DNA of 10,144 nucleotides, taken from contig CAAGFH010000100.1 of NCBI GenBank assembly GCA_900769095.1, forward strand, positions 1-10,144, in the 5' to 3' direction. This document shows positions 1 to 10,144 of the stretch, in pieces; position 1 is the first letter of the stretch; every line of letters begins with the position of its first letter. Below the pieces are notes generated by a model. It did not search any database, was not told the origin of the DNA, and saw only the letters and a program-made list of their open reading frames with translations. The translations under genes were made by a program, and so were the position numbers. The DNA is from Methanobacteriaceae archaeon (lineage in GTDB: Archaea; Methanobacteriota; Methanobacteria; Methanobacteriales; Methanobacteriaceae).

Positions 1-1
1 A

Positions 2-937
2 TACTCTGAATATGAAATTATTAACTTAGATGATTTAACATACTGTGGAAACCTTGAAAACTTAAAGGATATAGAAAATAAGGATAACTATTCTTTTGTT
101 AAAGGAAACATTTGTGATAAAGCAGTAGTTGATGAACTGGTTGAAAAATCAGATTATGTTATTAATTTTGCTGCTGAGAGTCATGTTGACAGAAGTATTA
201 GTGATCCTGAAATCTTTATTAAATCAAATGTTTTGGGAACACAGGTTTTGTTAAATGCAGCTAAACAGTATGGTGTTGAAAAATATATTCAGATTTCAAC
301 AGATGAAGTTTATGGAAGCTTAGGAAAAACAGGATACTTCAAAGAAACTACTCCTTTACAGCCAAACAGTCCATATTCTGCTTCAAAAGCAAGTGGAGAT
401 TTAATTACCCGATCTTATGGTGAAACATTTGGTTTACCGATAAATATTACTCGCTGTTCTAATAACTATGGTCCTTTCCAGTTTCCGGAAAAACTTATTC
501 CATTAATGATTTCAAACGCATTGGAGGATAAAAAACTTCCAGTATATGGCGATGGTAAGAATGTAAGAGATTGGTTACATGTCTATGACCACTGTCAAGC
601 TATTGATTTGGTTCTTCACGATGGTAAGCTTGGTGAAGTTTATAATATTGGTGGAAATAACGAAAAACAAAATATCGAAATTGTTAAATTAATTTTAAGC
701 CAATTAGACAAAGATGAGTCATTAATTGAATTTGTAACCGATAGATTGGGTCATGACAGACGCTATGCAATTGACTCAAATAAAATCCAAAATGACCTTG
801 GTTGGAGCCCAAAGTATTCATTTGACGTTGGTATTGAACAGACAATCCAATGGTACTTGGATAATCAAAACTGGACCAATCAAATCAAAAGTGGCGAATA
901 TAAAGAGTATTATGAAAAAATGTATTCATGCAGATAA
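2..937 (+). CDS. rfbB: dTDP-glucose 4,6-dehydratase, 5'-truncated by window edge
   Basis: This enzyme converts dTDP-glucose to dTDP-4-keto-6-deoxyglucose, the second step toward dTDP-rhamnose, in the cytoplasm with bound NAD. The reading frame is open from base 2 to the TAA at 935-937, giving 311 residues. The family usually has about 335-340, so roughly 25 N-terminal residues, including the GxxGxxG dinucleotide-binding loop, lie upstream of the window. Visible family signatures are INLDDLTY at the left edge, NFAAESHVDRSI, the catalytic STDEVYG segment (Thr, Asp, Glu) and the YSASKAS motif with the Tyr-x-x-x-Lys pair, followed by NNYGPFQFPEKLIP and RDWLHVYDHC. A TTG at 233 is an internal Leu codon and not a start. 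The subfamily call is secure because of the TDE and HVDRSI motifs; other extended-SDR sugar epimerases lack this combination. Its product fits the rhamnosyltransferase-like genes downstream. Confidence 0.95.
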   Translation, partial: YSEYEIINLDDLTYCGNLENLKDIENKDNYSFVKGNICDKAVVDELVEKSDYVINFAAESHVDRSISDPEIFIKSNVLGTQVLLNAAKQYGVEKYIQISTDEVYGSLGKTGYFKETTPLQPNSPYSASKASGDLITRSYGETFGLPINITRCSNNYGPFQFPEKLIPLMISNALEDKKLPVYGDGKNVRDWLHVYDHCQAIDLVLHDGKLGEVYNIGGNNEKQNIEIVKLILSQLDKDESLIEFVTDRLGHDRRYAIDSNKIQNDLGWSPKYSFDVGIEQTIQWYLDNQNWTNQIKSGEYKEYYEKMYSCR

Positions 938-960
938 TTTTTACACTTGAAACTTACCTC

Positions 961-998
961 TTTTTTTATCTGTTTTGAAAACTTTTTTTAATTTTTTT
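961..998 (+). terminator. Oligo-T terminator zone after rfbB
   Basis: Three runs of seven T residues (961-967, 983-989, 992-998) follow the rfbB stop by 23-60 bases. Archaeal RNA polymerase terminates at such T-tracts without needing a hairpin, so this is a likely intrinsic terminator. The small inverted repeat GTTTTGAAAAC at 972-982 has too short a loop to be a convincing hairpin. The rest of the 938-1157 gap is AT-rich and holds no open reading frame I can support. Confidence 0.6.
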
Positions 999-1090
999 GT
1001 GATATGGTTCCTTATTGTTTTTAATTTTAAACCAGTTCACTAATTTTTCATTATTTTTTAAGATTTAGTTATTTTGTAAATTTAGGATAA

Positions 1091-1106
1091 TTTTATATAT
1101 TTTATT
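1091..1106 (+). promoter_or_regulatory. TATA-box promoter of the small membrane protein pair
   Basis: The stretch TTTTATATATTTTATT resembles the archaeal TATA box. It lies about 70 bases before the first start codon, so transcription starting about 25 bases downstream of the box would begin near 1118-1125 and leave a leader of 40-50 bases containing the GGAGG ribosome site. The background is so AT-rich that a chance match is possible. The position after a terminator and before a gene with a strong ribosome site supports it. Confidence 0.5.
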
Positions 1107-1107
1107 A

Positions 1108-1120
1108 ATCTTATTAAGAT
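1108..1120. promoter_or_regulatory. 13-bp palindrome at the predicted transcription start (possible operator)
   Basis: ATCTTA-T-TAAGAT is a perfect inverted repeat with a one-base centre. It lies directly downstream of the TATA-like box and overlaps the expected start of transcription, where archaeal helix-turn-helix repressors commonly bind. No regulator is encoded nearby, and AT-rich DNA yields palindromes by chance, so this is a candidate only. Confidence 0.3.
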
Positions 1121-1151
1121 AAGTAGGAAATAATGTTTTATTAAATTATTT

Positions 1152-1156
1152 GGAGG
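1152..1156 (+). promoter_or_regulatory. Shine-Dalgarno site that decides the start of the first small membrane protein
   Basis: GGAGG matches the archaeal anti-Shine-Dalgarno. It sits one base before the ATG at 1158, which is too close for initiation, but ten bases before the ATG at 1167. It therefore points to 1167 as the start. The GTG at 1161 would have a spacing of four. Confidence 0.7.
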
Positions 1157-1166
1157 AATGGTGAGT

Positions 1167-1433
1167 ATGTTAGAGCAGTATTTGCCCTTTTTAGGTTTAA
1201 TTATTTTTGGAAACATTGAGAATTTAGTATTATCCTCTCAGGGAGTTGTTGCAGGAGTAAATCCTGTTAAATTAGGTGTTGCAAGTATAGTTTGTGTATG
1301 TATCTGGTTATTCATTGGTACTTTTGCAACTGGTATGTTTATTCAATATGCACCGTTAATTGATTTTATTGGTGGTTTAGCAATTTTCATTTTAGGTGCT
1401 CAAGCAATGATTGAGTCAATAAGAGGCGATTAG
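1167..1433 (+). CDS. Small three-helix membrane protein, first of a tandem paralogous pair (putative half-transporter)
   Basis: This 88-residue integral membrane protein is of unknown function. Three hydrophobic segments are visible at about residues 6-29, 36-59 and 63-83. The first carries the polar motif FGNIENL, and the second is preceded by VNPxxLG. The third ends in GGLAIFILGxxxMIES, which recalls the last helix of each repeat half in the LysE/MntP/TerC-type transporters; that resemblance is inference only. The start at 1167 is chosen because GGAGG at 1152-1156 is correctly spaced for it and because the protein then aligns with the N-terminus of its neighbour; an in-frame ATG at 1158 lies too close to that site. 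The only basic residues, K35 and R86, lie in the first loop and the C-terminal tail, predicting the N-terminus outside. The next gene starts one base after the stop, so the two are surely co-translated. Confidence 0.8.
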   Translation: MLEQYLPFLGLIIFGNIENLVLSSQGVVAGVNPVKLGVASIVCVCIWLFIGTFATGMFIQYAPLIDFIGGLAIFILGAQAMIESIRGD

Positions 1434-1434
1434 A

Positions 1435-1698
1435 ATGGATGAATTAAAACAATTCGCAGGATTATTAATTTTTGGAAATATCGAGAATTTAATTTTAGCT
1501 GCTCAAGGTGTTGTTGCTCACGTTAATCCTTTTGTTCTTGGTATTTTAAGTTTAATTGCTGTTTGTGCTTGGCTTGCAATTGGAACATTTGGTACCAAAA
1601 TTGCAATGAAATATGCTCGTTACATTAATTTCGCTGGTGGACTTGCAATTTTCATTTTAGGTATTAAATCTATGATTGAGTCTGGAGTATTATTTTAA
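1435..1698 (+). CDS. Small three-helix membrane protein, second of a tandem paralogous pair (putative half-transporter)
   Basis: This 87-residue protein is homologous to the preceding gene product, with roughly 55 percent identical positions by eye. It shares FGNIENL, AQGVVA, VNP, the WLxIGTF stretch and GGLAIFILG. It has the same three hydrophobic segments (about 8-28, 35-54 and 63-81). Its basic residues K5, K55, K59 and R62 lie at the N-terminus and in the second loop, so the positive-inside rule predicts the opposite orientation to its neighbour. A GAGG at 1423-1426, inside the end of the preceding gene, is eight bases before this ATG and can serve as ribosome site. The simplest model is an antiparallel heterodimer acting as one small transporter. 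The substrate is unknown. It might be an ion or a small metabolite if the resemblance to LysE/MntP-type halves is real. Confidence 0.8.
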   Translation: MDELKQFAGLLIFGNIENLILAAQGVVAHVNPFVLGILSLIAVCAWLAIGTFGTKIAMKYARYINFAGGLAIFILGIKSMIESGVLF

Positions 1699-1708
1699 GT
1701 AATTTAAT

Positions 1709-2788
1709 ATGAGTTATATAGCCCATAAATTTTATGGTGCTTTATTTAATTTATTTAAAAGCACCAAAATTAATAATAACAAAGTTTCATTTATCATTGA
1801 TTCAAAAGAATCCTTTAAAGGTAACTTAGATTATATTAAAAAGGAATTTGAGAATCGTGGAAACTTTGATTTTCACTATTTTTACAAGGATAAATTTTCT
1901 ATTAGTAGTTTCAAAAAGCTCTCTAGTTCAAAATTCATATTCCTAAATGACAATTTTTTCCCGCTTGCTTTTATGAATTTCAATCCTGAAACTGTTGTTG
2001 TTCAGTTATGGCATGCTCCAGGTGCTTCTAAGAAGTTCGGAGGATCTGTAGATATTCAAAGCAGAGAAATTCTTGAAAAAATCTCTAATAAAACAGATTA
2101 TTTAATTGTCACTTCAAATAATGTTAAAAAATATTATAAGGAAGCTTTCCAGATATCTGAGAGTAAAATTAAATCATTAGGCCTTCCTCGTATGGACTAC
2201 TATTTTGAAAATCATGATGTAGACAAATTAAAATCAAAATTTTTAAAAGACAACAATTTCCCAACAGATAAGAAAATTGTATTGTATGCTCCAACATTTA
2301 GAGATGATGAAAAATACAATAATGTATTTAATTACTTGAATTTAGATGAATTTAACCGTGTTTTAGGTGATGAGTATGTTTTATCCTTAAGACTTCACCC
2401 TAAAATCAAAGACTTCTACAAAGAGGATATTATATCCAAAGGAAGCTATATTGATGCAAGTAATTATGAAAGTGAACAGGAATTAATGCTTATAAGTGAT
2501 ATCTTAATTACTGATTATTCGTCTATTATGATAGAATTTGTGGCTTTGGATAAGCCTGCTATATTTTTCACATATGATTTGGATAGCTATTTGTCAAATG
2601 AACGTGGATTTTATTATGATTTTGAAAAAACCGTTCCAGGACCAATTGTTTATACCTCTGATGAATTAATAAATGTAATTAAAAATGAGGAATTTGATAA
2701 AAGCAAAATATCTGAATTTACTAAGACACAATTTGATGTAATTGATGGTGATTCATCTAAAAGAGTTGTCGACTTTCTATTAAAATAA
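1709..2788 (+). CDS. CDP-glycerol glycerophosphotransferase family protein (TagB/TagF-like)
   Basis: Members of this family transfer glycerol-phosphate or ribitol-phosphate from the CDP-activated form to a lipid-linked acceptor at the inner membrane face, as in bacterial teichoic acid synthesis. The 359 residues show the family landmarks in order: QLWHAPGASKKFGG near residues 99-112 with the conserved His102, LGLPRMD near 157-163, VLYAPTFRDD near 191-200, LRLHPK near 227-232 with the second conserved His230, and DILITDYSS near 264-272, followed by a FYYDFE...PGPI tail. Both histidines known to be essential in the family are present, so the enzyme looks intact. The length fits the single-domain TagB type and not the longer TagF type. 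It begins ten bases after the half-transporter pair and lacks a clear Shine-Dalgarno site; its TAA overlaps the next ATG by one base. The donor could be another polyol nucleotide, so the exact substrate is uncertain. Confidence 0.87.
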   Translation: MSYIAHKFYGALFNLFKSTKINNNKVSFIIDSKESFKGNLDYIKKEFENRGNFDFHYFYKDKFSISSFKKLSSSKFIFLNDNFFPLAFMNFNPETVVVQLWHAPGASKKFGGSVDIQSREILEKISNKTDYLIVTSNNVKKYYKEAFQISESKIKSLGLPRMDYYFENHDVDKLKSKFLKDNNFPTDKKIVLYAPTFRDDEKYNNVFNYLNLDEFNRVLGDEYVLSLRLHPKIKDFYKEDIISKGSYIDASNYESEQELMLISDILITDYSSIMIEFVALDKPAIFFTYDLDSYLSNERGFYYDFEKTVPGPIVYTSDELINVIKNEEFDKSKISEFTKTQFDVIDGDSSKRVVDFLLK

Positions 2789-3759
2789 TGGCTGATAAAA
2801 TGGATAATATTAAGGTTAGTGTAATCGTTCCAGTTTATAATAGTTGTGAGTATATAGGTACCACACTTGATTCAATAATTAATCAGGATTTTGAGGATTT
2901 TGAAGTTATTGTCATAGATGATGGCTCTAGCGACAACAGTCTTGAAATAATTGAAGAAAAATTATCCAAATCAAATATAAGTCACAATATAGTTCACCAG
3001 GATAATTATGGTGTAAGCTGTGCAAGAAATCGTGGAATTGAACTTGCACGTGGTGAATATATTGTTTTTGTTGACGCAGATGATTATATACAAAAAAATC
3101 ATTTATCAGAATTATACAATGGAAAAACTGATTTCAGTTTAGTACAGTTAGTTAAAAAAGAAAAAAATAATATTTCTAATCCTTACAAGTTTGAAACTCA
3201 ATCAATTTCTTGTGAAGATTTTATAAAAATGGAATTGAATATGGAAATTCCTTTCTCATTTTGTCAGTTAATGTATAAAAAAAGTATTATTGATGAGAAT
3301 AATATCAGATTCACACCAGATGTTGTATATGGTGAAGATACAGAGTTTGCACTTAAAGCATTAGTTTTTGGAGATGTTATTTCCATTAGTAATGAAGCAA
3401 CATACTGTTATATCCAGCATGAGAATTCAGCTATTAGAACATCTAATTTCAGACGTTTTTATATTGTAGATGTATTTGAAAATTTAGCAAAATACTACAA
3501 AAAGCACGGAAAAGATGAATTAGCTGATTTAATAATAACATCAAGAATACCAAAAGCTATTTTTGGAAATATGAATTATTTTTTTGTAAACAATTATGAT
3601 TTTGATGAAGTACTCTCACAAATGAAAGAATTAGACTTATTTACAAAATTATCCAAGTTTGAAGGAGATTCTAAATTCAAACTTAAAATAAAGTTATTCT
3701 TATTAAGTCCAAAGAATTATTATAAAATATGGAAAAAACTTAAAAATTCAATTGATTAA
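2788..3759 (+). CDS. Family 2 glycosyltransferase
   Basis: This is a GT-A fold inverting glycosyltransferase that would add one sugar to a lipid-linked glycan on the cytoplasmic side of the membrane. The N-terminal domain starts with VSVIVPVYNS (10-19) and VIVIDDGSSDNS (40-51), which bind the nucleotide. CARNRGIELARGEY leads to the DADD metal-binding motif at 96-99. GEDTEF at 182-187 carries the usual catalytic-base region. The C-terminal part (about 220-323) is basic and has no clear membrane segment. It uses the ATG that overlaps the preceding stop codon (TAATG); an alternative ATG at 2800 would remove four residues. The sequence resembles the capsule and lipopolysaccharide transferases of the EpsJ/WcaA type, but the sugar cannot be read from sequence. 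Confidence 0.9.
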   Translation: MADKMDNIKVSVIVPVYNSCEYIGTTLDSIINQDFEDFEVIVIDDGSSDNSLEIIEEKLSKSNISHNIVHQDNYGVSCARNRGIELARGEYIVFVDADDYIQKNHLSELYNGKTDFSLVQLVKKEKNNISNPYKFETQSISCEDFIKMELNMEIPFSFCQLMYKKSIIDENNIRFTPDVVYGEDTEFALKALVFGDVISISNEATYCYIQHENSAIRTSNFRRFYIVDVFENLAKYYKKHGKDELADLIITSRIPKAIFGNMNYFFVNNYDFDEVLSQMKELDLFTKLSKFEGDSKFKLKIKLFLLSPKNYYKIWKKLKNSID

Positions 3760-3760
3760 T

Positions 3761-4720
3761 ATGAAAGTTTCTGTTGTTACACCTAATTATAATGGGGAAA
3801 GATTTTTAAAAACATTCTTAGAGTCCCTTAATGAAGATAGTGAGTATATTGGTGAAGTTATCATTATAGATAACGGGTCTAGTGACTCTAGTATTGACTA
3901 TCTTAAAAATAATAAGTTCAATTTCCCGTTGGTTTTAATTGAAAACAAAGAAAATGTAGGTTTTTCACCAGCGGTTAACCAGGGGATAAGAAAAGCTAAA
4001 AACAGTCTTATATTTTCAATTAACAATGATACAGAAATTAAAAAAGGATCAATTAAAAAATTAATCGATTTAATAACTTCCAGCGATGATATTTTCTCAG
4101 TTCAGGCTAAAATGCTTCAATATAACAATAAAGACTTAATTGATGATGTAGGGGATGAATACAATCTTCTTGCATGGACTAAAAAAGTAGGGGAAAATCA
4201 TAAATCCAGTGAATATGTTGAAGTAAGAGATATTTTTTCAAGCTGTGCTGGAGCTGCAATGTATAATAAATCAATTTTAGAAGAAATAGGTTTATTTGAT
4301 GATAACTTCTTTGCATATATGGAAGATGTTGATTTAGCTATTAGATCAAGGATTAACGGATATAGAAACCTTTTATGTCCTGAAGCTATTGTTTATCATA
4401 TTGGAAGTGCAACTTCAGGAAGCAGATATAATGAATTCAAGGTCAAATTAGCGGCCCGTAATAATGTATGGGTAGTTTATAAAAATATTCCAATTCCACT
4501 AAAAATTCTAAATTTTGTTTTCCTGTTTTTAGGATTTTTAATTAAATACATATTCTTTTGCAAAAAAGGCTTTGGTAAAACTTACATGGCTGGGTTACGT
4601 GAAGGATTATCTACTAGAAGTAAGATAGATAAGGTTAAATTTGAATCCAAAAATACAAAAAACTATTTTAAACTTGAATTCAGATTAATAATAAACACTA
4701 TTAAATTTTTAAAAAGATGA
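3761..4720 (+). CDS. Family 2 glycosyltransferase, WbbL-type (rhamnosyltransferase-like), membrane-anchored
   Basis: This is a 319-residue GT-A glycosyltransferase of the subgroup that includes rhamnosyltransferases. It shows VSVVTPNYNGERF at the start, IIIDNGSSDSS (34-44), ENVGFSPAVNQGI (64-76), and NND at 88-90 in place of the classical DXD, which is normal for this subgroup. MEDVDLAIR begins at 187 and VYHIGSATSG at 211. One hydrophobic segment at about 248-267 probably anchors the enzyme to the membrane. I chose the ATG at 3761; an in-frame TTG at 3752 overlaps the preceding gene and is less likely. The gene starts one base after the upstream stop. The rfbB gene in the same window makes a precursor of dTDP-rhamnose, consistent with a rhamnosyl donor, but that assignment is inference. 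Confidence 0.88.
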   Translation: MKVSVVTPNYNGERFLKTFLESLNEDSEYIGEVIIIDNGSSDSSIDYLKNNKFNFPLVLIENKENVGFSPAVNQGIRKAKNSLIFSINNDTEIKKGSIKKLIDLITSSDDIFSVQAKMLQYNNKDLIDDVGDEYNLLAWTKKVGENHKSSEYVEVRDIFSSCAGAAMYNKSILEEIGLFDDNFFAYMEDVDLAIRSRINGYRNLLCPEAIVYHIGSATSGSRYNEFKVKLAARNNVWVVYKNIPIPLKILNFVFLFLGFLIKYIFFCKKGFGKTYMAGLREGLSTRSKIDKVKFESKNTKNYFKLEFRLIINTIKFLKR

Positions 4721-4725
4721 TTAAT

Positions 4726-5583
4726 ATGGACCTTTCAGTCGTAATTGTAAACTATCAAACATTTGAACTAACAAAAAATACTATTAATTCTATTTTTGAA
4801 AATGAATGTTCATTTGAATATGAGATTTTGGTAGTTGACAATGCATCCAGTGACGATAGCCTTGCAAAGCTAAAAGAATATTTTGGCGATAAAGTAACAT
4901 TTATTGCATCAAAAGAAAATAACGGTTTTGCAGCAGGAAATAATCAGGCTTTAAGGATTGCAAAAGGTAAATATGTTCTTCTTTTAAATTCAGATACAAT
5001 TGTTTGGGAAAATACATTAAATAACATCTACAACTATATGGAAAATCATGAAGATGTCGGTGCATGCGGATGCAGAGTTGTTTTAGAAAACGGTGAACTT
5101 GACAAAGCATGTAAAAGGAGTTTTCCAAACGTTAAAAATTCATTTTTCAGATTGTTTCATATTCCAACAAAAAGCAAAGACAATGACTATAACTTAGATA
5201 ATCTTCCTGATGATGAAATCTATGAAATTGACTGTCTTACCGGAGCATTTATGTTTATGAGAAGTGAGGCACTAAACCAGTCAGGTTTTCTTGATGAAAC
5301 ATTTTTCATGTATGGTGAAGATATTGACCTTTGTTATAGGATTAAAAAAGCAGGCTGGAAGATTATCTACTATGGAGAATCTAAAATTACCCATTTAAAA
5401 GGTGCAAGCAGTAAAAAACAAAAATCCAAATTGATTTATGAGTTTTACAGAGCAATGTACATTTATTATAAAAAACATCATGCAGACGAGTCTTCATTTA
5501 TAGTCAATATTGTAGTCTATATTGGGATTGCTGTTTTATGTATTTTAAAGCTATTTTTAAATTTATTTAAAAAGAAAGATTAA
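4726..5583 (+). CDS. Family 2 glycosyltransferase, WbbL-type (rhamnosyltransferase-like), paralogue of the preceding gene
   Basis: This GT-A glycosyltransferase has 285 residues and the same architecture as the gene before it: LSVVIVNYQTF, LVVDNASSDDS, ENNGFAAGNNQAL, a DXD-equivalent NSD at 88-90, LTGAFMFMR, MYGEDIDLCYRIKKAGW with the GEDIDL motif at about 197-202, and THLKGASS. A hydrophobic C-terminal segment (about 258-281) followed by a lysine-rich tail would anchor it in the membrane. The start is either 4726 or the ATG at 4717, which overlaps the preceding stop as ATGA. I prefer 4726 because the same TGATTAATATG junction precedes the neighbouring transferase. It may add a rhamnose or another deoxysugar next to the one added by its paralogue. 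The sugar is not determined. Confidence 0.88.
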   Translation: MDLSVVIVNYQTFELTKNTINSIFENECSFEYEILVVDNASSDDSLAKLKEYFGDKVTFIASKENNGFAAGNNQALRIAKGKYVLLLNSDTIVWENTLNNIYNYMENHEDVGACGCRVVLENGELDKACKRSFPNVKNSFFRLFHIPTKSKDNDYNLDNLPDDEIYEIDCLTGAFMFMRSEALNQSGFLDETFFMYGEDIDLCYRIKKAGWKIIYYGESKITHLKGASSKKQKSKLIYEFYRAMYIYYKKHHADESSFIVNIVVYIGIAVLCILKLFLNLFKKKD

Positions 5584-5621
5584 ATAATTATTAAATTCAA
5601 ATAATTAATATTAATCAGTTT

Positions 5622-5626
5622 GGGGG
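5622..5626 (+). promoter_or_regulatory. G-rich ribosome binding site of the polyprenyl sugar transferase gene
   Basis: A GGGGG run followed by T lies seven bases before the ATG at 5634. It is one of the few recognisable ribosome sites in the glycan cluster, whose tightly packed genes mostly rely on stop-start coupling. The 50-base gap from the preceding stop is otherwise almost pure A/T with no T-tract terminator, so read-through from upstream is likely. Confidence 0.5.
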
Positions 5627-5633
5627 TAGTTTA

Positions 5634-7037
5634 ATGATTAAAGAAAACCAAAAATTATTGAATTTAACATTGGTTTTAATTGATGTTTTAGTTATTGCAT
5701 TGGCACTTCTTTGTTCTTTATGGTTAAGATTCAAAACTACTCTTTTTGGACCTCTTGGAGGACATTTAGGATTTGTAAGTTATTTTTTATTCTTTGCTTT
5801 TGCAATAATTCCTGTTTATTTAATTTTATATTTCGCGTTTGGCCTTTATAAGCCCCGTAGAACTTATAAAAATATATTTTCAGAAGCTACCCAATTAATT
5901 AAGGTAAACATTGTTGCATTTATTGTATTAGTGTCAATTTTGTTTATCATAAATCAACCTAACTTTTCAAGGATTATGTTGATTTTATTAGCTATGATTT
6001 CAACTTTCTTTGCAATCATTGAAAGATTTACAATCAGGGCTTTTTTAAGAAGAATACGCATTAACAACAAAAATATTAAGCATATTCTCATTGTTGGAGA
6101 TAATGAACTAGCTTTCAAATTTGCACGTAAGATTCGTGAAAATCCATATATGGGATTTGTTGTAAGTGGTTTTTTAGGACGCCAAGATCATATTGGACGT
6201 GAAATTGAAGGAAGCAGTATCATTGGATCTTTTTCAGATATTGATGCAATTCTTGATAAAAACAGATTTGACAGAGTTGTTTTAGCTATTCCTTTACAAT
6301 ATTATGATAAAATCAATGATCTTGTGGAAAGCTGTGAGAGAGTTGGAATTAAAGCGGAGATTATTCCTGATTATATCAGATATTTCCCTGCTCAGCCTTC
6401 TGTAGATATGGTTGATGACATTCCTATTATTAATATCAGATATGTTCCTTTAGATGATGATTTCAATAAATTCTTGAAATATCTCTCAGACTACATCATA
6501 TCAATAATTGCAATTATTATTACATCACCAATCATGTTAATAACTGCTATTGCAATTAAATTGTCTTCCAAAGGACCTATTATATTCAAACAGGAAAGAA
6601 TAGGTCATAACGGTAAACCTTTCATGATGTATAAATTCCGTAGTATGAAAGTCCAAGATCCTGATGAGGAAAAGTCTGAATGGACAACAAAAGATGACCC
6701 AAGAAAAACCAAAGTTGGGGAAATTATAAGAAAAACCAGTATTGATGAATTACCTCAATTTTTCAATGTAGTGAAAGGTGATATGAGTGTTGTAGGTCCA
6801 AGACCTGAAAGACCATATTTTGTTAAACAATTCAAGGAAACTGTTCCTAAATACATGGTTAAACATCAAGTTAGACCTGGATTAACTGGTTGGGCTCAAA
6901 TTCATGGTTGTCGTGGAGATACCTCAATTAAAAAACGTATTGAATATGATATTGAATATGTAGAAAACTGGCATTTAGGTTTAGACTTAGGTATTATGAT
7001 TAAAACTGTATTAAAGAAAAATCATAATGCATATTAA
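5634..7037 (+). CDS. Undecaprenyl/dolichyl-phosphate sugar-1-phosphate transferase, WbaP/WcaJ type (initiating transferase)
   Basis: This enzyme transfers a sugar-1-phosphate from a nucleotide sugar to the polyprenyl-phosphate carrier and so starts glycan assembly. The 467 residues have the typical three-part layout. Four hydrophobic helices lie in the first 130 residues. A Rossmann-like CoA/NAD-binding-type domain spans about 148-250 (HILIVGDNELA). A hydrophobic segment near 286-310 then leads into the bacterial sugar-transferase catalytic domain. That domain shows FKQERIGHNGKPF, KFRSM at 334-338, the catalytic Asp-Glu pair in SIDELPQF (371-372), VVGPRPERP at 386-394 and RPGLTGWAQIHG from 414, so it appears active. 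Length matches the exopolysaccharide polyprenyl glycosylphosphotransferase family. In archaea the carrier would be dolichyl phosphate and not undecaprenyl phosphate. The first sugar (glucose, galactose or another) cannot be told from the sequence. It closes the glycan cluster and is followed by a T-tract. Confidence 0.93.
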   Translation: MIKENQKLLNLTLVLIDVLVIALALLCSLWLRFKTTLFGPLGGHLGFVSYFLFFAFAIIPVYLILYFAFGLYKPRRTYKNIFSEATQLIKVNIVAFIVLVSILFIINQPNFSRIMLILLAMISTFFAIIERFTIRAFLRRIRINNKNIKHILIVGDNELAFKFARKIRENPYMGFVVSGFLGRQDHIGREIEGSSIIGSFSDIDAILDKNRFDRVVLAIPLQYYDKINDLVESCERVGIKAEIIPDYIRYFPAQPSVDMVDDIPIINIRYVPLDDDFNKFLKYLSDYIISIIAIIITSPIMLITAIAIKLSSKGPIIFKQERIGHNGKPFMMYKFRSMKVQDPDEEKSEWTTKDDPRKTKVGEIIRKTSIDELPQFFNVVKGDMSVVGPRPERPYFVKQFKETVPKYMVKHQVRPGLTGWAQIHGCRGDTSIKKRIEYDIEYVENWHLGLDLGIMIKTVLKKNHNAY

Positions 7038-7038
7038 C

Positions 7039-7053
7039 TTTTTTTCACTTTTT
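7039..7053 (+). terminator. Oligo-T terminator at the end of the glycan cluster
   Basis: A run of seven T (7039-7045) and one of five T (7049-7053) follow the stop codon by one base. This is the usual form of archaeal intrinsic termination. It separates the glycan genes from the recombination operon. The remainder of the 7054-7195 gap is AT-rich and contains the promoter listed separately. Confidence 0.6.
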
Positions 7054-7140
7054 AACATAGATGCACTTAAGAAATATTTTTATTAATTTATTTTTAATTT
7101 TAGTATATGCATTACTTTTCAAATGCTCTCTCTAATAATT

Positions 7141-7148
7141 TTTATATA
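7141..7148 (+). promoter_or_regulatory. TATA-box promoter of the rpa-radA operon
   Basis: TTTATATA matches the archaeal TATA box and lies 48 bases before the rpa start codon. Initiation about 25 bases downstream would give a leader of roughly 25 bases that contains the GAGGGG ribosome site at 7184-7189. The arrangement is typical for a well-expressed methanogen gene. Confidence 0.65.
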
Positions 7149-7195
7149 CATTCTAGTTATAAAATAATAATTAACTTTTCAATGAGGGGTTTGGT

Positions 7196-9781
7196 ATGCA
7201 AGAAGAAATTATAAATTTATATGAAAAAATTAGCGATCAACTTTCTGAAGAAGAATTTCAAGCACAAATAGATGAAATTCTCATGGAAAATGATCTTTAT
7301 GATGAAGTAGATGCCGCTCATATTATTTTAGAAAAATATGGTGTCGATGATGAATCATCTGATGAATCCTGTGATGAAGCTGGAGTAGAAATGAGTGCTG
7401 AAATCTTAGAATATTATAATAAAGTTAAAGATAAGATTTCACCAGAAGACTTTTTGAATAGAATGGATTATTATAAAAGTAAAAATGAGCATGCTTCATT
7501 TATGAGTGAAGAAACATTTGCTGAAATGGTAGTAGGTGAATATGTCAACGAAGAAATTGAAGTAATCTCTGAACAGCCTGATTATGCTGCTGACACTATC
7601 GATAAACTTGAAAAAGATATGAAAGATGCAACAGTTTCCGGTAGAGTAATTTCCATTTCAAACCCAAGGTCATTTAAAACACGTAAAGGACAAAGTGGAC
7701 AAGTCTGTAATGTGGAATTAAAAGATAACACTGGTACAATTAGAACAGTATTCTGGACTCAAAATATCAAGCTTCTTAAGAATGTTAACGAAGGAGAAAT
7801 TATCCAAATTAAAGGTGTAGATATTAAAGAAGGATATTCAGGTCTTGAAGGTAATTTAAGACAAAGATCCACCCTTATTCATTTAGATGAAGACCCTTCA
7901 AAATATCCGGAATATGTTGAAGATATCACAGATATTGCAGATATCCAAGGTGATACTAAAGTTAATATTATTGCTAGAATCGTTAGAATTTCAACTGTTA
8001 GATCCTATGAAAAGAATGGTAAGCAAGGAAAAGTTGCATCTATTGATTTACAAGATTATTCCGGTAAAATTACTTACACATTATGGAATAAGAATGTTGA
8101 ATTAATCCAAGACTTAGGTCTTGAAGATGGTGACACAGTTAAAATTATCCAGGCTCAAGCCCGTGAAAGAATGAACAGGGATGGCGAAAGTGAAATGTCA
8201 TTAACCCATTGGGACGGTAGGATTATCAAAGGTGATTTCGACGTTCCTGAAGTTACACATGAATTCTCACTTATTGGAGACTTATCTGAAGCACAAGATG
8301 TTTCAATTAAAGGAATTGTTTCAAGACTTCAAGATATCAAAACATTTACAAGAAAAACTGATGGTTCTGAAGGTTGTTTAAGAAACTTTGATGTTAGAGA
8401 TACAACCGGTGAGATTAGAGTTACATTATGGGGAGATGACACTCAATTACCAATTAACAAAGGAGATATCATAAAAATTATTGGCGGTACTGTAAGATTT
8501 GATGAATATACTCAAAGCCAATACTCAATGAATACTAACTTTAATACTCAAATTACTATTAACCCTGAAAACTTATCTATGGAAGATTTAGATGCATTCA
8601 ATGATTTAAGAGAACAATTAAGACCAGTTCCTATTGGTGAAATTTACACTATTGATGATGATGGAATTGAACTTGATGTTGTTGGAAGAATCCTTTCTGT
8701 AGATGATACTAATGAATTCCAAAGAGATGATGGAAGTATTGGAATCGTACGTTCATTAACCTTTGCTGATGAATCCGGTAAAGTCAGATTATCCTTATGG
8801 AATGAACGTGCTGAAGAAGAATATCTCGTTGGAGACGCATACCAAATTGAAAATGCAAGAACCAGATTAGGAATGTATAGTGTAGACTTAAATATTGGTA
8901 GTGGAGCTCGTCTTATTAAATTATCTGAAGAACAAGCTTCTGCAATGTTTATACCAGAATTAGCTACATTAGAAAAAGCATTATATGATTATAAGAAAAT
9001 TGAAGAGATCGATGAAGATGATACTGATGTTATTATCATAGGTCGTGTCATTGAATTAAACGATGTTCGTACATTTGAAAGAGACAATGGGGATACTGGT
9101 GCTGTAAGAAATATTGAAATTGCAGATGAAACTGGTTCTATTAGAATTGTCTTATGGGATGACAATGCTCAAAGAGAATTTGAAATGGGTCAAGCAATTA
9201 AATTACAAAATCCTCGTTTCGATTTAGACAGAGACAACCGTATTGAAGCTGTTGTTAATAGAAGCACTGCAATTTTAGAACCAAATGAAAACGAACTTGA
9301 AAGATTACCTTCACAAGATGAATTAATGGAAGCAATTTACGTTCCTAAACCTATCGAATCATTAACTGAAGATGATGTTAATGTTTGTGTAACAGGTACT
9401 ATCCATGATGTGGAAGCTGATAGAGTTATCCGTAAAAGATGTCCTGCTTGTGGAAAAACCGTAGAAGAAACAGAAGATGAATATATCTGTGATTACTGTG
9501 GTCATGTATTCGATGATCCTAAATATCTTCTCATGGTTCCTTTAAGGATTGAAGATGATACTGGTTCAATTAAAGTCACTTTCTTCGATAATTTAGCTGA
9601 AGAATTGATTGGAATGAACAAAGAAGAAATTATCAGCATTGTTGATGATGGTTACGGAATTGAAGACAAACTTGAAGATTTAGAAGGTCTTACTATTGAA
9701 ATTTTAGCTAATGTAAGTTTCGATGATTATAACGAAGAAAATAGGTTAAATCCTAAGAAAATTTTATCAAAATACTATTAA
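7196..9781 (+). CDS. rpa: Replication protein A, large single-subunit archaeal form with six OB-like modules and zinc finger
   Basis: This single-stranded DNA-binding protein acts in replication, recombination and repair. In its 861 residues I see an N-terminal helical region made of two similar units (about 2-52 and 68-119), separated by an acidic Asp/Glu/Ser stretch at 51-62. Five canonical OB folds follow, near 143-229, 254-345, 366-456, 490-575 and 610-695. Each has the pattern V-x-G-R-(I/V), then D-x-(T/S)-G-x-I-R-x-x-(L/F)-W, the aromatic DNA-stacking strand. A last OB-like module at about 728-845 carries a CxxC...CxxC zinc finger with cysteines at 749, 752, 765 and 768. Single-chain RPAs with four or more OB folds are known from methanogens, so the class is secure; at 861 residues this is a large member. 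The start is fixed by GAGGGG at 7184-7189, six bases before the ATG. It shares an operon with radA, which acts on the same DNA substrate. Confidence 0.95.
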   Translation: MQEEIINLYEKISDQLSEEEFQAQIDEILMENDLYDEVDAAHIILEKYGVDDESSDESCDEAGVEMSAEILEYYNKVKDKISPEDFLNRMDYYKSKNEHASFMSEETFAEMVVGEYVNEEIEVISEQPDYAADTIDKLEKDMKDATVSGRVISISNPRSFKTRKGQSGQVCNVELKDNTGTIRTVFWTQNIKLLKNVNEGEIIQIKGVDIKEGYSGLEGNLRQRSTLIHLDEDPSKYPEYVEDITDIADIQGDTKVNIIARIVRISTVRSYEKNGKQGKVASIDLQDYSGKITYTLWNKNVELIQDLGLEDGDTVKIIQAQARERMNRDGESEMSLTHWDGRIIKGDFDVPEVTHEFSLIGDLSEAQDVSIKGIVSRLQDIKTFTRKTDGSEGCLRNFDVRDTTGEIRVTLWGDDTQLPINKGDIIKIIGGTVRFDEYTQSQYSMNTNFNTQITINPENLSMEDLDAFNDLREQLRPVPIGEIYTIDDDGIELDVVGRILSVDDTNEFQRDDGSIGIVRSLTFADESGKVRLSLWNERAEEEYLVGDAYQIENARTRLGMYSVDLNIGSGARLIKLSEEQASAMFIPELATLEKALYDYKKIEEIDEDDTDVIIIGRVIELNDVRTFERDNGDTGAVRNIEIADETGSIRIVLWDDNAQREFEMGQAIKLQNPRFDLDRDNRIEAVVNRSTAILEPNENELERLPSQDELMEAIYVPKPIESLTEDDVNVCVTGTIHDVEADRVIRKRCPACGKTVEETEDEYICDYCGHVFDDPKYLLMVPLRIEDDTGSIKVTFFDNLAEELIGMNKEEIISIVDDGYGIEDKLEDLEGLTIEILANVSFDDYNEENRLNPKKILSKYY

Positions 9782-9803
9782 ATAAACAAAAGGAATGAGA
9801 ATT

Positions 9804-10124
9804 ATGGTTGAATTAAATGATTTACCAGGTGTTGGAGAAAAAACCGCAGAAAAATTAAGGGATGCAGGATTTGCAGATATGATGAGATTAGCAACCGCTA
9901 CTGCTAAAGAATTATCTGTAAAAGCAGAAATCGGTGAAGGTGTTGCTGAAAAAGTTATTGAAGCTGCTCGTAAATCTGAAAACATTGATTTTGAAACTGC
10001 ATTGGAAGTTGATGAAAGAAGAAAAGACGTTGGACATATTACTGTTGGTAGTCAAGAGTTCAATGATTTAATCGGCGGTGGAATTGAAACTCAATCTATT
10101 ACTGAAGTATTTGGTGAATTTGGA
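9804..10124 (+). CDS. radA: DNA repair and recombination protein RadA, 3'-truncated at adapter junction
   Basis: RadA is the archaeal Rad51/RecA homologue that forms filaments on single-stranded DNA and drives strand exchange with ATP. Only the first 107 codons are genuine. They include the N-terminal helix-hairpin-helix domain ([17 protein letters not shown] at about 7-23) and the linker ([18 protein letters not shown] at about 66-83). The beginning of the ATPase core ([22 protein letters not shown]) ends inside Walker A. The full protein is normally about 310-320 residues. The expected continuation is SGKTQ, but the bases from 10125 on are sequencing adapter, and the apparent residues RSEEHTS are not real. 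The start is 9804, nine bases after AGGA at 9791-9794; an in-frame ATG at 9795 directly abuts that site. The gene lies 22 bases after rpa with no terminator between, so they are co-transcribed. Confidence 0.95.
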
Positions 10125-10144
10125 AGATCGGAAGAGCACACGTC
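10125..10144 (+). other. Illumina TruSeq adapter remnant (assembly artefact)
   Basis: The last 20 bases begin AGATCGGAAGAGC and match the first 20 bases of the standard Illumina TruSeq read-1 adapter exactly, as I recall it. They start precisely where radA homology stops. This is read-through adapter left on a contig end, not genomic DNA. Confidence 0.97.

Follow-up and report, generated by a model that had tools for sequence, protein, structure and literature searches.

Interruption of radA at the 3′ end of the window

The locus considered here raises a simple question: do the last 20 bases of the window (the whole stretch of 10,144 nucleotides that was analysed), which interrupt the gene for the archaeal recombinase RadA within its ATP-binding motif, belong to the genome of the archaeon, or are they a remnant of the sequencing library? 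The reading adopted here, to which a probability of about 0.99 is assigned, is that these bases are sequencing adapter, read through from a fragment that ended at 10124 and kept untrimmed as the end of the contig. The features involved are as follows:

9804..10124, + strand: genuine 5′ part of radA, codons 1-107 of 311 (frame reading, Pfam, TIGR02236)
10125..10142, + strand: spurious codons RSEEHT, adapter-encoded, the apparent end of the open radA frame
10125..10144, + strand: Illumina TruSeq-type adapter remnant, non-genomic (identity to printed strings, difference from the near-identical assembly G000, 0/151 genomes)

The radA frame opens at 9804 and, in agreement with the first-pass annotation, is conserved up to the GEFG that ends at 10124, codon 107 being GGA; it is then continued by the adapter-encoded residues RSEEHT and by two leftover bases, TC. 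The peptide GRSEEHTS, which had been offered as a marker of such contamination, starts with a residue that is not adapter-encoded, its G belonging to RadA. The cut falls within the Walker A motif, after GEFG and before SGKS, and the genuine 5′ part covers the helix-hairpin-helix domain and the first portion of the Rad51 core (PF14520 at residues 3-57, PF08423 at residues 72-106). The match to the archaeal RadA family TIGR02236 spans residues 3-108 and scores 138.4 bits, which is below the family cut-off of 361.15 because the frame is truncated; the RadA of G000 scores 510 bits and matches the family over almost its full length. Thus, the N-terminal helix-hairpin-helix domain and the beginning of the Rad51 core are present in the window, and a complete Walker A motif (GxxxxGK[S/T]) and an above-cut-off family score are absent. 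Among solved structures, archaeal RadA/Rad51 proteins match best, with 1pzn in the first place. Compared with archaeal RadA (TIGR02236; PDB 1pzn, 2bke, 1t4g), residues 1-107 of the window are alike, whereas the record lacks residues 108-311, and with them the remainder of Walker A, and has the six adapter-encoded residues instead.

Identity of the terminal 20 bases

The final 20 bases of the window (10125-10144, + strand) read AGATCGGAAGAGCACACGTC and match the TruSeq strings printed in Moeller et al. (2024) (BMC Genomics 25:1033, PMC11536531) at 20 of 20 positions, which confirms the initial identification of this tail as the start of the TruSeq adapter. The tail is composed of the 12-base universal string AGATCGGAAGAG and of CACACGTC, the first 8 bases of the forward-specific TruSeq string, as these are printed in that article. 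Judged against the same strings, the remnant begins at the first base of the adapter, lies on the + strand in the insert-to-adapter orientation, and is the last thing in the window. A search for the 13-mer AGATCGGAAGAGC that allowed up to 2 mismatches gave a single match in the window, at 10125-10137 and with 0 mismatches; at this tolerance, 0.09 matches are expected, and 18 of 200 shuffles contained at least one. The probability that the exact 20-mer stands at a single specified position is approximately 8e-14 under the base composition of the window (GC 0.298). The same adapter is used in NEBNext and other kits, and for this reason "TruSeq-type" is the safer name. The source contig probably terminates at window base 10144.

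Comparison with a near-identical assembly and with relatives

The window could be placed on contig C5 of assembly G000, where bases 1-10124 agree at 99.88% of positions, with 12 substitutions and no gap, and the last 20 bases agree at only 7 of 20 positions, in a stretch fetched without N. Given 12 substitutions in 10,124 bases, G000 is a near-identical strain or assembly and not the window's own record. From the exact junction base, G000 continues with TCTGGTAAAAGTCAA; past the codon GGA it reads TCTGGTAAAAGTCAAATTTC, which encodes GEFG followed by SGKSQIS. Its radA is complete, with 311 codons reading GEFGSGKSQISHEL, and includes GEFGSGKSQ. The junction is clean: T in the genome faces A in the window at 10125, so that no base is common to genome and adapter at this position and the break therefore falls exactly after 10124. 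The 13-mer AGATCGGAAGAGC has no exact match in the genome G000. It is thus a near-identical strain that shows the intact radA, and not the sample from which the window derives.

A RadA search of the genome_contigs collection yielded 97 relatives' loci, the best 80 of which were kept. Among these best 80 of 97, 58 are Methanobrevibacter by record title and the highest RadA identity is 97% (L124); the archaeon is probably Methanobrevibacter-like, a genus name that depends on these named matches. The motif GEFGSGKSQ lies at residue 104 of the RadA frame in all 80, and the 13-mer AGATCGGAAGAGC is found in none of these best 80 of 97 loci. The original statement that the SGKT of the ATP-binding loop is replaced therefore stands as far as the replacement is concerned, whereas the motif itself is SGKS, both in G000 and in the best 80 of 97 relatives. 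When the best 80 of the 97 loci and the corresponding locus of G000 (L002) were used as BLAST subjects (n = 81), each gave a single segment beyond base 10000, ending at 10123 (26 subjects), 10124 (53) or 10126 (2).

The complete 20-mer was detected in 0 of the 67 genus genomes and 0 of the 151 phylum genomes searched (the 67 included), that is, adapter contamination of the AGATCGGAAGAGCACACGTC kind is unseen in close relatives across the 151 phylum assemblies. The last nine genomic bases followed by the adapter, as in the window, gave 0 matches in genome_contigs, a search that may omit the window's own or very near records.

Origin of the tail

A read that is longer than its insert enters the ligated adapter, and adapter that is left untrimmed gets assembled. 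In the present case, the library fragment would have ended at base 10124, and a sequencing read would have passed beyond the end of this presumably short insert into the TruSeq-type adapter ligated to it; this would have remained untrimmed, and the assembler would have retained these bases as the contig end. The adapter branch may also have helped to stop the extension of the contig. Adapter-free source reads would be expected to go on past 10124 with TCTGGTAAA.

Two other explanations were weighed. A chimeric assembly join to DNA of another organism that starts with these bases has in its favour that the window probably comes from a draft contig, in which such joins occur. However, all 20 bases are adapter, from its first base and in the insert-to-adapter orientation of the strings printed in Moeller et al. 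(2024), and nothing lies beyond the adapter within the window. With different genomic bases and an intact radA in G000, no copy of the 20-mer in 151 genomes and an uninterrupted motif in the best 80 of 97 relatives, such a join was rejected as extremely improbable. Still less credible, and likewise rejected, is a real strain variant, in which an insertion or rearrangement within radA would equal the adapter over its first 20 bases by chance: strain differences do exist, as the 12 substitutions relative to G000 show, but the coincidence would have to reach the order of 8e-14 at this one place and to fall on the very last bases of the window, radA is intact in G000, Walker A is kept in all of the best 80 of 97 relatives, and the 20-mer is absent from all 151 phylum genomes. 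No evidence favouring a genomic origin of the tail was found. The initial claim that the adapter is not genomic here is borne out, in that none of the related genomes examined has the tail and G000 differs from the window precisely there.

Adapter read-through thus being the preferred origin, radA is truncated only in this record, and the finding says nothing about the RadA of the archaeon. The tail is an ordinary data error of an already published kind, correctly recognised as an artefact. Moeller et al. (2024) describe contamination of contig ends by Illumina adapters in databases of microbial genomes: in MGnify assemblies, the adapter is found at contig ends and its reverse complement at contig beginnings, a pattern that the authors regard as consistent with adapters breaking contigs during assembly, which they argue from the gains obtained on reassembly. 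The window shows the same adapter strings and the same orientation rule as are reported there; that study deals with MGnify assemblies, whereas the present case is a single window end of a Methanobrevibacter-like archaeon, and the part of the article consulted here says nothing of protein entries that carry adapter-encoded peptides. For curation, the matter is that trimming 20 bases removes both the false RadA end and the false "loss" of the ATP-binding loop.

The same 20-mer in viral contigs

The 20-mer is also present in at least 120 viral contig stretches of IMG/VR (L004-L123), with 127 sites among the matches listed; a control with the 20-mer in reversed order retrieved 0 records from the same collection. 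At 125 of these 127 listed sites, the 3′ side of the adapter lies no more than 250 bases from the end to which it points, compared with about 6.4 expected under uniform placement, the "end" here being that of the analysed stretch, as some of the at least 120 stretches belong to longer contigs. Proximity to the opposite end was found at 2 of the 127 listed sites (L055 and L108), the stretch of L108 being only 280 bases long. The two exceptions to the end rule among the 127 listed sites are L020, where the adapter is 1,271 bases from the end, and L055, where it lies near the start and points inwards. The adapter continues through all 34 bases tested at 82 of the 127 sites and matches up to the last base of the stretch at 44 of the 127, again among the matches listed. 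In L055, the bases that come after the 20-mer at positions 68-87 are TAGGGAAAGAGTGT and resemble a hybrid between the indexed adapter and the universal one.

Adapter-encoded peptides as false protein ends

Translation of the adapter in its three frames gives RSEEHTSELQS, DRKSTRLNSSH and IGRAHV, and that of the other TruSeq adapter, the universal one, gives RSEERRVGKEC, DRKSVV and IGRASCRERV. In the literature searched, no mention was found of any of six adapter-encoded peptides, RSEEHTS among them. The frames were tested at those viral-contig sites, 125 among the matches listed, that have 300 or more upstream bases. At 72 of these 125 listed sites, an open frame of 60 residues or more runs into the adapter, and the longest such frame ends in RSEEHT in 24, in DRKSTR in 25 and in IGRAHV in 23 of the 72. 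With 24 of the 72 frames among the listed matches ending so, RSEEHT catches roughly one case in three for one adapter.

A search with the RadA of the window, under length limits that exclude full-length RadA, retrieved 93 database proteins. Two of them, both RadA fragments from the source ena, have universal-adapter peptides at their ends: P0055 ends in IGRASCRERV, with 10 residues in common with a universal-adapter frame, and P0064 ends in DRKSVV, with 6 residues in common with the frame that has a stop codon at this point. Shuffled universal adapters served as a control: 0 of 2000 gave a 6-residue match within the 15 C-terminal residues of any protein in this set of 93, and under a looser 5-residue rule, 33 of 2000 reached a match. 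RSEEHT is absent from the last 45 residues of all 93 proteins.

The expectation that false RadA ends would be present in databases is thus upheld by P0055 and P0064 with universal-adapter peptides and fails for the peptide that had been named; the search that had been proposed, for GRSEEHTS-like tails, returned no protein ending in RSEEHT among the 93 retrieved. As a marker, GRSEEHTS is useful in part only and weak in general, representing one of three frames of one of two adapters and starting with a G that is RadA's own. Chance occurrences of RSEEHTS in the protein database would number about 900, an estimate that gives the order of magnitude only, with a protein length of 200 residues and a uniform residue composition assumed. 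Tails encoded by either adapter, in all three frames, can find their way into protein databases; therefore, a screen should use all the peptides, together with a frame that runs into the contig end, and not GRSEEHTS alone. Very probably, false C-termini of this adapter-encoded kind recur as a class among database proteins, which would be a data-cleaning result and not biology.

Other genes in the window

Directly upstream of radA, at 7196-9781 (+ strand), the window encodes a replication protein A-like protein of 861 residues, which gave several matches to OB folds. The region 2-7037 (+ strand) looks like a surface-polysaccharide gene cluster, with a nucleotide-sugar dehydratase/epimerase, a CDP-glycerol glycerophosphotransferase-like protein, three family 2 glycosyltransferases and a bacterial-type sugar transferase. 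At 1158-1433 and 1435-1698 (+ strand), there are two adjacent small hydrophobic open reading frames of 91 and 87 aa, which gave no Pfam match at an E-value of 0.001; the two are similar by eye (FGNIEN, QGVVA, GGLAIFILG) and appear to be a tandem pair.
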